A stretch of DNA of 64,000 nucleotides from the NCBI RefSeq assembly GCF_014174275.1, contig NZ_JABEQK010000008.1, positions 124,001 through 188,000 on the forward strand, read 5' to 3'. Source of the stretch: Gluconacetobacter takamatsuzukensis (GTDB lineage Bacteria > Pseudomonadota > Alphaproteobacteria > Acetobacterales > Acetobacteraceae). How positions within the stretch are numbered: the first letter of the stretch is position 1; each line of letters opens with the position of its first letter. A program made the position numbers and the translations under genes. A model generated the notes under the pieces. The model searched no databases. It had not been told where the DNA came from and saw only the letters and a program-made list of their open reading frames with translations. Positions 1-2,046 of this stretch are shown here, in pieces.

Positions 1-43
1 TCGCCTCGGGGAGGGAGGAATAGATATCGGAAAGGGACGTCAT
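1..43 (-). CDS. possible 5' end of an unidentified gene, truncated by window edge
   Basis: An ATG at 43 on the minus strand opens a frame reading MTSLSDIYSSLPEA that leaves the window. Only 14 codons are visible and no strong Shine-Dalgarno precedes it, so neither the reading frame nor a function can be judged. It would lie downstream of clpP in the same direction, 114 bases after the clpP stop. Confidence 0.25.
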   Translation of the reverse strand, partial: MTSLSDIYSSLPEA

Positions 44-80
44 GGTTTCGCAAGCTCGCACAATGAGTACAGACGTCGGC

Positions 81-138
81 CCGGCCTGGGGTCAGGCCGG
101 TCCGAACGTCACCTTGCGGCCCCCCCTGCGATGGGGGG
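81..138. terminator. two GC hairpins downstream of clpP
   Basis: An 8-bp perfect stem (CCGGCCTG at 81-88, CAGGCCGG at 93-100) and a C6/G6 stem (121-126 with 133-138) lie between the clpP stop and the next frame. Neither has a T-tract, so they may stabilise the clpP 3' end rather than act as classical intrinsic terminators. Confidence 0.35.
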
Positions 139-156
139 GATGAGGGGGGCCAGCGA

Positions 157-870
157 TCAGTGGATGTCGGAGAGGGTGGAGATGACCCGTGTCACCAGCC
201 CGTAGGCGATCGCCTCTTCGGCCGACATCCAGTAATTCCGGTCCGTGTCGCGGCAGATCTTCTCGTACGACTGGCCGGTTTCGCGGGCGAACAGGCGGTT
301 GAGCCGTTCGCGCATCTTCACGATTTCCCGCGCCTCGATATCGATATCGGTGGCGGGGCCGCGCACGCCGCCCATCGGCTGGTGCAGCAGGAAGCGGGTG
401 TTGGGCAGGCAGTAGCGGCGCTGCGGGTTGCCGGCGGCGAAGATCAGCGCGCCCGCCGAGGCGACCCAGCCGGTGCCGATCACGTTCACCGGGGCGACCG
501 AATCGACGAAGCGGATCATGTCGTGAATCGTGTCGCCGCTTTCGACATGGCCGCCGGGCGAGTTGACGTAGAGGTCGATCGGCTTGTCGGACGCGCCGGC
601 CAGCGCCAGCAGGCGGCCGGTGACGTCGCGCGCCAGCTTGTCGTTGATCGCCCCGAAGACCAGCACCTTGCGCTGATCGAACAGGCGGCTCTCGAGCTCG
701 TTGATCGGGGAGGAAAGCGTCTTGTTATCGCCGGGTTCCGTCGGTTCGGGGCCCTGGGGCTCGGGGATGTCGGGACCGTTCGGGTCTTCGTCATCCATCC
801 GGATACGGTGGTTCGGCTGCATGCCGTTCAGCATCATGATCTCCCTGTATCCAGGACTGGTCTGCGTCAT
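157..870 (-). CDS. clpP: ClpP-family serine protease subunit, divergent type
   Basis: A proteolytic chamber subunit of the Clp protease family (S14), 237 aa from ATG 870. An AGGA sits 7 bases upstream; the downstream pair of ATGs at 837/834 is an alternative, preceded by AGGGAG. Residues 1-50 form a Pro/Glu/Asp-rich extension not seen in ordinary ClpP. The nucleophile Ser138 (GWVASAGA) and His163 (LLHQPMGG) are in place. The third triad position, Asp185 in the E. coli precursor (ERDRFLSA), aligns with Asn212 here (DRNYWMSAEEA). Listeria ClpP1 is a known ClpP with Asn at that site. There is no clpX or tig neighbour, unlike the housekeeping clpP, so I infer a second, specialised ClpP that may need a partner subunit. 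Confidence 0.9.
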   Translation of the reverse strand: MTQTSPGYREIMMLNGMQPNHRIRMDDEDPNGPDIPEPQGPEPTEPGDNKTLSSPINELESRLFDQRKVLVFGAINDKLARDVTGRLLALAGASDKPIDLYVNSPGGHVESGDTIHDMIRFVDSVAPVNVIGTGWVASAGALIFAAGNPQRRYCLPNTRFLLHQPMGGVRGPATDIDIEAREIVKMRERLNRLFARETGQSYEKICRDTDRNYWMSAEEAIAYGLVTRVISTLSDIH

Positions 871-1044
871 CACTCTATCCTGCGCCGCCTTCGGGCCGGT
901 GCCAAGGCCTGACCTTTTCCGCGCCGCCCGCGAACCGGCGGTGCCGCTCTCTAGCTCAAAGGCCCGGGGCCGGGCTAGTAAGGGAGGGCAGGCGGCCGTG
1001 CCCCGGACGGAATGCGGCCGCCAGACGCTGGTCATGGAGTGAAG

Positions 1045-2046
1045 ATGGGTATGAAAGCGCCGCTGCCAAGAGACCGCGCGGCTTCGGCCTGCCCGGCGGG
1101 CCGCCGGGGGGCGGGCGTGGGCGCGGCGCTGGCGGGGCTGCTGGCTGGCCTGCTGCCGCTGGCCGGCTGTGCCCATCGCGATGCCGTCGACAGCACGCTG
1201 GACTGGTTTCATCAATATCAGGGCGGCGTCATCGCCCAGCAGCGGCCGCCGCCGCCGGGTGCGCACGACCCCTATCCCGCCGTGGGGCTGACGCCGACCA
1301 CGCCGCCGGTGCTGCCCTCGGCCGAGCGGCGGCAGGATGTGACGGAATCGCTGATCGAACAGCGCAACCTGGCGCACCGGATGGGGGCGGAGGTCGGGCC
1401 GCTGACGAATACGGCCCCGCCCGCGACGCCCGTGCTGGCGCGGCCTGCCCCGGCGGCCGCGCCGGGCGGGGGCGATGCCGCGTCTTCGGCGACGCTGGAC
1501 GCGGCGGAGGCGCCTCCGCCGCCGCCGTCGAAGGCCGGCGCGAAGGGTGCTTCGGCGCAGGACGCGGGGGCTGGGCCGCTGGTGGCGATGCCCGAGGTCG
1601 AGGCGGATGTGGGCGGCGTGGGCGGCAAGCCGCAGGCCGTGCCGGTGCCGCCGGAGATTCCCGCCGGGCCGCCTGTGGCACCGCAATTCCCCGGTTTCGC
1701 GGTGGCGACCGACGATACGGTGCCGACGATCCGCCCGGATTATGCGCTGGCCGACCTGGGGGGGACGCGCATTCTATTCCCGGTCGGCAACGATCGGCCG
1801 GTGCCGGGGCAGGAGAAGGCGATCGACAGCGTGGCGCGCCACAGCCCCGCCGGCCCGCTGTTCGTCCACGGGTATGGCGAGGCCGCGTCGACCGATTCGG
1901 CGGAGCAGGCGCGGGCGATGGCGCTGGCGCTGCTGCGTGCCCGGGCCGTGGCCGACCGGCTGGTGGCCGATGGGGTGCCGGCGAAGGCGATTCATCTGCG
2001 CGCCCATCCGTTCGGCGACGGCGTGCGCGTCGGCATGGCCGAGTAG
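1045..2046 (+). CDS. OmpA-like lipoprotein
   Basis: A 333-aa predicted outer-membrane or periplasmic lipoprotein. The start at ATG 1045 is supported by GGAG at 1036-1039. A basic N-terminus and Ala/Leu-rich segment end in a lipobox (LPLAGC), so the lipidated Cys is at about residue 42. A long low-complexity Pro/Ala-rich linker (about residues 70-230) follows, then a C-terminal region (ILFPVGNDRPVPGQEKAID...) whose pattern resembles an OmpA/MotB peptidoglycan-associated fold (beta strand, helix with many Ala/Arg, HGYGEA, final strand). The canonical NxxLSxxRA signature is weak (EQARAMALALLRARAVADRLV). It is divergent from clpP, sharing a 174-bp intergenic region. Function beyond envelope attachment is unknown. 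Confidence 0.7.
   Translation: MGMKAPLPRDRAASACPAGRRGAGVGAALAGLLAGLLPLAGCAHRDAVDSTLDWFHQYQGGVIAQQRPPPPGAHDPYPAVGLTPTTPPVLPSAERRQDVTESLIEQRNLAHRMGAEVGPLTNTAPPATPVLARPAPAAAPGGGDAASSATLDAAEAPPPPPSKAGAKGASAQDAGAGPLVAMPEVEADVGGVGGKPQAVPVPPEIPAGPPVAPQFPGFAVATDDTVPTIRPDYALADLGGTRILFPVGNDRPVPGQEKAIDSVARHSPAGPLFVHGYGEAASTDSAEQARAMALALLRARAVADRLVADGVPAKAIHLRAHPFGDGVRVGMAE

Follow-up and report, generated by a model that had tools for sequence, protein, structure and literature searches.

The window, by which is meant the whole stretch of 64,000 nucleotides from Gluconacetobacter takamatsuzukensis that was analysed, carries on its reverse strand, at positions 157–870, a gene for a ClpP protein of 237 residues, here called clpP2 and assigned to the partner lineage of ClpP proteins from its translation, its match to PF00574 and its placement with Listeria ClpP1 and Pseudomonas ClpP2. 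A preliminary description of this DNA had the reading frame, strand and coordinates right, and it also recognised an acidic, Pro/Glu-rich leader. PF00574 covers residues 58–231, and residues 1–57 (positions 700–870, reverse strand) form that leader, which is acidic and Pro-rich in sequence and contains an RMDDE motif of the kind counted below. In the AlphaFold model the leader is of low confidence: block means of pLDDT are 40–52 over residues 1–50, a part predicted from these values to be disordered, and 69 over residues 51–60, and the core mostly reaches 88–98, with a dip to 74–77 at residues 161–180. On the same strand lie the codons of the nucleophile Ser138 (457–459) and the general base His163 (382–384), both identified by alignment and positioned by arithmetic from the translation, and that of Asn212 (AAT, 235–237), which by sequence and alignment stands in the place of the catalytic Asp (D171 in E. 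coli).

Upstream of the gene, at 876–906 on the reverse strand, sequence comparison reveals a conserved element, CTTGGCAC-N13-GCGCAGGATA, which contains a Shine-Dalgarno-like AGGA and lies 5 nt ahead of the ATG; the presence of this AGGA inside a block conserved in relatives supports the ATG at 870 as the start codon. With up to three mismatches, the element was found at 20 of the 52 copies from the same bacterial family and at none of the 44 other Asn-type and 68 Asp-type members that complete the 164 lineage sequences tabulated. The exact copy is unique in the genome, in which four other places match at three mismatches, against one in a reversed control. Part of the element may be a promoter block and part the ribosome site; when compared by eye with the consensus sequences of σ54, σ32 and EcfG, it fits none of them, and scans of window positions 1–1300 for σ70 promoters and intrinsic terminators found nothing.

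In acetic-acid bacteria the neighbours of the lineage clpP do not belong to the clp system. Immediately beyond the left edge of the window, clpP2 is followed in the same orientation by genes for one or two ferritin-like proteins (L235:3552–4562 and L235:2692–3693, both on the reverse strand), a label that comes from reading the sequences: the Pfam model Rubrerythrin falls just under its cut-off for the first and is absent for the second, and a single-sequence structure of the downstream ferritin-like protein, with a mean pLDDT of 37, is unusable. On the other side of clpP2 lie genes for a divergent aminotransferase (Pfam) and a homoserine dehydrogenase (NCBIfam). The ferritin-like gene and the aminotransferase gene flank clpP2 in 12 of the 14 named same-family loci. 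Among 132 other loci, a set separate from the 52 same-family ones (L004–L055) and scanned with at most 1.5 or 3 kb on either side, clp-system genes accompany the lineage gene only once, and their proximity is thus rejected as a general rule. In that single locus (L114, genome G526), the lineage clpP and a canonical clpP are arranged head to head, with clpX following the latter.

Canonical ClpP and other clp genes in the genome

PF00574 matches the genome in three places: the highest score, 279 bits, belongs to a canonical ClpP encoded on contig C6, the window gene scores 209 bits, and a short, weak match of 26 bits lies on C20. The C6 protein reads LERDSYMS, with Asp at the third triad position, and its gene sits between the trigger factor gene tig (TIGR00115) and clpX (TIGR00382). 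In a model search, ClpA scored above the family cut-off in the same genome, and no AAA+ match to the ClpA model was found on C8, the contig of the window. A second clpP beside tig and clpX, for which the preliminary description had suggested looking, is therefore present; the absence of clpX near the window gene holds as far as examined, and the idea that this gene might encode the only ClpP falls away. Given the position of the canonical gene between tig and clpX, the window gene is neither the sole ClpP nor the housekeeping-operon copy. In the canonical ClpP (L001:1471–2178, reverse strand), too, the VPMVVEQ motif is preceded by an N-terminal leader, some 35 residues long.

The two types of ClpP are commonly found together. 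A canonical-scoring ClpP occurs in 33 of 35 hand-picked genomes that bear the lineage and in all eight further hand-picked ones; the two exceptions are the fragmented draft assemblies G015 and G072, which are also the two of the 51 same-family genomes in which no canonical ClpP was found. When the canonical partner was checked at 30 loci, 28 were read by script as Ser-His-Asp, L217 was left unread and the canonical copy of L218 reads DRDTF. To our knowledge canonical ClpP is nearly universal, in agreement with the family-wide genome scan made here, and its co-occurrence with the lineage gene is for that reason weak evidence.

Catalytic triad and selection

In an alignment of E. coli ClpP with 119 fetched ClpP loci, a number that includes some repeats, the triad columns of E. 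coli S97, H122 and D171 are occupied by Ser138, His163 and Asn212. The nearest acidic residues are D210, opposite E. coli E169, and D208, opposite D167; neither column belongs to the triad, and another Asp replacing Asn212 is thus ruled out. The earlier reading, with Ser and His present and Asn in place of the triad Asp, is thereby borne out, and the window protein lacks the canonical Ser-His-Asp triad that its sibling retains. Inactive subunits of the ClpR type are defined by loss of Ser and/or His; in the window protein both are present, and they are invariant in all 164 lineage sequences.

The codon for Asn is AAT in 26 of the same-family copies and AAC in the other 26. One transition would convert it to an Asp codon, yet the residue is fixed in all 52; since the silent site varies while Asn does not, Asn is kept by selection. 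Pairwise dN/dS over the core ranges from 0.035 to 0.225 in seven pairs, the eighth pair being saturated. The invariant Ser and His, the fixed Asn with its two codons and the low dN/dS argue together that the window protein is an enzyme under selection, and Asn as a mark of lost function is rejected. A decaying duplicate or a sequencing error might be suspected from a gene that lies off the operon and has one catalytic residue changed. This explanation is refuted and keeps practically no probability, considering the 52 copies that hold Asn through both codons, a dN/dS well under 1, the upstream element conserved in 20 of 52 copies and the gene order kept in 12 of 14 named loci.

Lineage placement and the third triad residue

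With the canonical subfamily model NF001368 (PRK00277), the window protein scores 191.7 bits, below the cut-off of 249, whereas the sibling passes with 331.7. The best NCBIfam match of the window protein is NF009205 (PRK12553), at 278 bits over a cut-off of 228; the sibling also passes (267.7 bits), and the model was dropped as a lineage marker. The ClpP equivalog TIGR00493 (cut-off 308.6) is missed by both, narrowly by the sibling (306.1) and with 165.8 bits by the window protein. Neither of these last two models decides anything, because both proteins pass the one and miss the other. In a sequence search of the PDB, the best match is Listeria ClpP1 (4jcq, 1.5e-64), then P. aeruginosa ClpP2 (9ndj and 7m1l, about 2e-60), and other ClpPs start at 4e-44. 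The top five Foldseek matches of the predicted model are chains of 9ndj, 4ryf and 7m1l, with P. aeruginosa ClpP2 at rank 1 and Listeria ClpP1 at ranks 2 and 3; three of the five chains come from ClpP1/ClpP2 heterocomplexes, 9ndj and 4ryf being such by title.

A tree of 110 sequences, calculated with the triad column left out and after removal of sequences more than 90 % alike, sets the lineage apart from 10 canonical ClpPs at a support of 100/100. Its inner branches are often weak (47 of 107 starred), and its same-family input consisted of 22 hand-picked copies out of 52, before removal, plus named copies; L003 was dropped, as it had no ClpP match. By its sequence and predicted fold, the window gene is a second, partner-type ClpP, which groups with Listeria ClpP1 and Pseudomonas ClpP2 apart from canonical ClpP. 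The likeness to the Listeria pair drawn in the preliminary description thus goes beyond analogy, Listeria ClpP1 being the best PDB sequence match and occupying fold ranks 2 and 3, while the term “specialised paralogue” gives way to membership of a lineage spread over several phyla.

In the same family, a copy at E <1e-90 is found in 51 of 120 genomes (our own count from the list), which hold 52 copies, the window's own included, with two in G027. The best match in 67 of the other genomes lies at about 1e-36 to 1e-42 and is of the canonical type, G095 has one at 8.5e-13 only and G017 has none. The two copies of G027 (L053 and L054) are about 13.5 kb apart and score equally; together with L055, they read NRN instead of DRN at the triad Asn, the Asp two positions ahead of it being replaced by Asn. 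A class-level search at 1e-44 gave matches in 36 of 241 genomes, six of which came without loci (G134 was later read as L113, and five are unread), and a phylum-level search at the same threshold gave 55 of 249, where the lineage (down to 3.4e-59) is mixed with canonical-type ClpPs (from 6.1e-48). The lineage is sparsely represented in two other phyla: at E 1e-54 and with the central genome counted, a search centred on Enterococcus found it in 4 of 299 genomes and one centred on an Anaerolineae genome in 3 of 151. A named scan, of which the best 80 of at least 597 loci were considered, includes Gluconacetobacter, Komagataeibacter, Gluconobacter, Acetobacter and Bombella, as well as Rhizobium, Enterococcus, Gemmatimonadetes, Chloroflexi and Verrucomicrobia; the closest relative of the window protein among these 80 is that of G. 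asukensis, at 97 % identity. The putative partner-ring lineage appears to be old and scattered across phyla.

Asn occupies the third triad position in all 52 same-family copies, and Asp does so in all 18 canonical ClpPs, one of which is the E. coli row. Protein similarity was the sole basis for finding the 46 class and phylum loci outside the same-family set, and these comprise 20 with Asn and 26 with Asp. The named loci (best 80 of at least 597) divide into 38 Asn and 42 Asp, counts for which one of two search patterns admitted only these two residues and the 80 are those nearest to an Asn-rich query. By phylum, these same best 80 comprise 58 Alphaproteobacteria (26 Asn, 32 Asp), ten Beta- and Gammaproteobacteria, all with Asp, and 12 loci outside Proteobacteria, all with Asn: four from Enterococcus, three from Gemmatimonadota, two from Chloroflexota, one from Verrucomicrobiota and two titled KSB1 and Promineifilum, for which the table gives no phylum. 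Further copies from Bacillota (three) and Chloroflexota (two) all have Asn. Exceptions to the phylum pattern are L110 and L111, which belong to the window's phylum but to another class and have Asn; L110 clusters with Listeria and Enterococcus in the tree, and L111 had been removed as a near-copy.

On the 110-sequence tree, the third residue changes about five times within the lineage. The Asn rows are monophyletic in none of 200 bootstrap trees, and the starred branches alone force only two changes. Equal-weight parsimony reconstructs the basal state of the lineage as Asn in 170 of the 200 bootstrap trees, as Asp in 2 and as ambiguous in 28; this result, which depends on the sampling described above, is suggestive of an ancestral Asn without settling it. 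A tentative scenario, to which somewhat less than an even chance is given, holds that Ser-His-Asn was original in an ancient second ClpP lineage serving as an obligate partner ring, with Asn barring self-pairing; within Proteobacteria, Asp would have returned on several occasions and other means would maintain the dependence on a partner, and Asn would persist in the non-proteobacterial members. Asn is in any case common in the partner lineage, and perhaps original to it, rather than a rare oddity; the Ser-His-Asn configuration of ClpP is described as rare in print (PMC12900304).

Leader, unfoldase-binding cleft and proposed assembly

The last 40 residues or fewer before the core contain, on average in same-family copies, 25 % Asp plus Glu, 10 % Lys plus Arg and 18 % Pro; the share of Asp plus Glu is 28 % in the other Asn-type members, 27 % in the Asp-type members and 14 % in canonical ClpPs, the leader start being a guess, namely the farthest upstream Met within 90 residues. 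Same-family leaders are longer and Pro-richer than those in the rest of the lineage. The motif [RK]-[LFMIV]-[DE]-[DE]-[DE] occurs within 70 residues before the core in 31 of 52 same-family copies, 14 of 44 other Asn-type, 13 of 68 Asp-type and 0 of 17 canonical sequences, against means of 0.5 and maxima of 3 after residue shuffling in the three lineage groups; this excess is descriptive only, since the motif was chosen after inspection, kin sequences are not independent and 70 residues may pass the true start. Most matches between the window protein and canonical PDB chains begin at about residue 58, equivalent to E. coli residue 18, and the leader is devoid of the VPMV-EQ motif of the canonical N-terminal chaperone-binding loop. 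An acidic leader is thus common throughout the lineage at the place of the canonical axial loop; whether it acts as an axial gate, a shield or a docking tail is a matter of guesswork.

The E. coli positions L48, F49, Y62, F82, M92 and L114 are taken here to be cleft positions, of which F49 and M92 would contact the unfoldase loops. F49 is replaced by Ala and M92 by Thr in all 52 same-family copies; Ala49 is also found in 30 of 44 other Asn-type and 67 of 68 Asp-type members, and Thr92 in 44 of 44 and 53 of 68, respectively, whereas 0 of 18 canonical ClpPs have Ala49 and 1 of 18 has Thr92. The two replacements fit docking of the unfoldase on the other ring. L48, Y62, F82 and L114 are mostly retained, and binding of ClpX to the window ring is for this reason still conceivable. 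At E. coli positions 98 and 173, all 18 canonical ClpPs have Met and Tyr or Phe, and the lineage has Ala (163 of 164) and Trp (164 of 164).

Among characterised systems, Listeria monocytogenes ClpP1 (4jcq, 4ryf, 6sfx) shares with the window protein the Ser-His-Asn triad and, when chain 4ryf_A is aligned by fold, 54 % of the residues; by the available text of PMC5361862, it likewise accompanies a canonical ClpP as the second of two and lacks the canonical N-terminal chaperone-binding motif. The window protein, known here from its sequence, differs in its longer acidic, Pro-rich leader and in its Gram-negative host with both ClpA and ClpX. P. aeruginosa ClpP2 (7m1l, 9ndj) belongs to the same tree lineage and supplies the best fold match, a chain of a ClpP1/ClpP2/ClpX complex, but has Asp at the third triad position. 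The canonical sibling and E. coli ClpP share family, fold, Ser and His with the window protein, to which they are about 41–42 % identical, and differ in their Asp triad and N-terminal VPMVVEQTSRGER. Finally, the ClpP1 of P. plecoglossicida, outside the tree, is also a non-Asp partner ClpP, with a heterotetradecamer more active than the homo-forms, but it has Ser-His-Pro and a truncated N-terminus, and its low activity is reported to have its main cause elsewhere than in the third residue (PMC12900304, as far as its accessible part goes).

The sequence, the lineage, the predicted fold, the fixed Ser, His and Asn and the canonical partner gene are the evidence in hand; the 7+7 assembly, the partner dependence and the one-sided docking are extrapolated from the characterised relatives in Listeria and Pseudomonas. 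The window protein would fold as a ClpP subunit and form a homo-heptameric ring, which would stack on a ring of the canonical ClpP encoded on C6 to give a 7+7 tetradecamer, whose canonical face would receive an AAA+ unfoldase, either ClpX or ClpA. Because of Asn212, an active homo-tetradecamer would form poorly or not at all, so that the ring would be switched on by its partner. Such a partner ring of the Listeria ClpP1/Pseudomonas ClpP2 lineage, with Asn disfavouring self-pairing, is probably the right description of the window protein.

According to the accessible portions of PMC5361862, the Asn of Listeria ClpP1 selects an inactive heptamer and its change to Asp yields a tetradecamer with more activity; ClpP1 is active only with ClpP2, the complex consists of two homo-heptamers, and ClpX is seemingly not bound through the ClpP1 ring. 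The “mixed ring” of the preliminary description therefore stands as a complex of two ClpPs, but not in its ring composition, which would be two stacked homo-heptameric rings. P. aeruginosa ClpP2, by the available text of PMC9753991, is unable to assemble into a functional homotetradecamer and pairs with a ring of ClpP1. Since this Asp-type protein is also partner-dependent, Asn is not the sole switch and, contrary to the earlier view, does not by itself mark partner dependence; the dependence is therefore common to both relatives, and Asn is one way to it.

Two other readings deserve consideration. In some serine hydrolases the acid position can be filled by Asn, and the window protein could be an independent protease, that is, an active homo-tetradecamer with its own substrates in which Asn is merely tolerated, as the invariant Ser and His and the alternation of Asn and Asp within the lineage would allow. 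This is unlikely, however, with Asn unchanged in 52 same-family copies although one transition away from Asp, and with a partner ring needed by both characterised relatives in what is accessible of PMC5361862 and PMC9753991. Less probable still is a ClpR-like structural or regulatory pseudo-protease, whose ring would tune the canonical ring or unfoldase binding and cleave nothing: a non-cleaving partner could suffice, in that Listeria heterocomplexes, including those with one ring mutated in its active site, exceed the ClpX-ClpP2 homocomplex in activity about 10-fold (PMC5361862, accessible part), but Ser138 and His163 are retained across the lineage, with no ClpR-like loss, and the gene is under purifying selection.

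In Novacetimonas hansenii grown on glycerol, clpP1, clpP2, clpX1 and lon are reported to be significantly induced, in an account whose accessible text does not match these genes to the lineages. Among the papers listed by a literature search, beyond whose reach most subscription papers lie, none is by title and abstract a study of alphaproteobacterial partner ClpPs. Relative to the print that was found, the results suggest that what is new is the breadth of Ser-His-Asn in the partner lineage, and its possible ancestry there. Ser-His-Asn fixed in a whole bacterial group, together with Asp-type natural variants in the same lineage, makes up a natural series, which serves tests of the third triad residue in ring pairing and of the reason for having two ClpPs, in hosts that are culturable acetic-acid bacteria.
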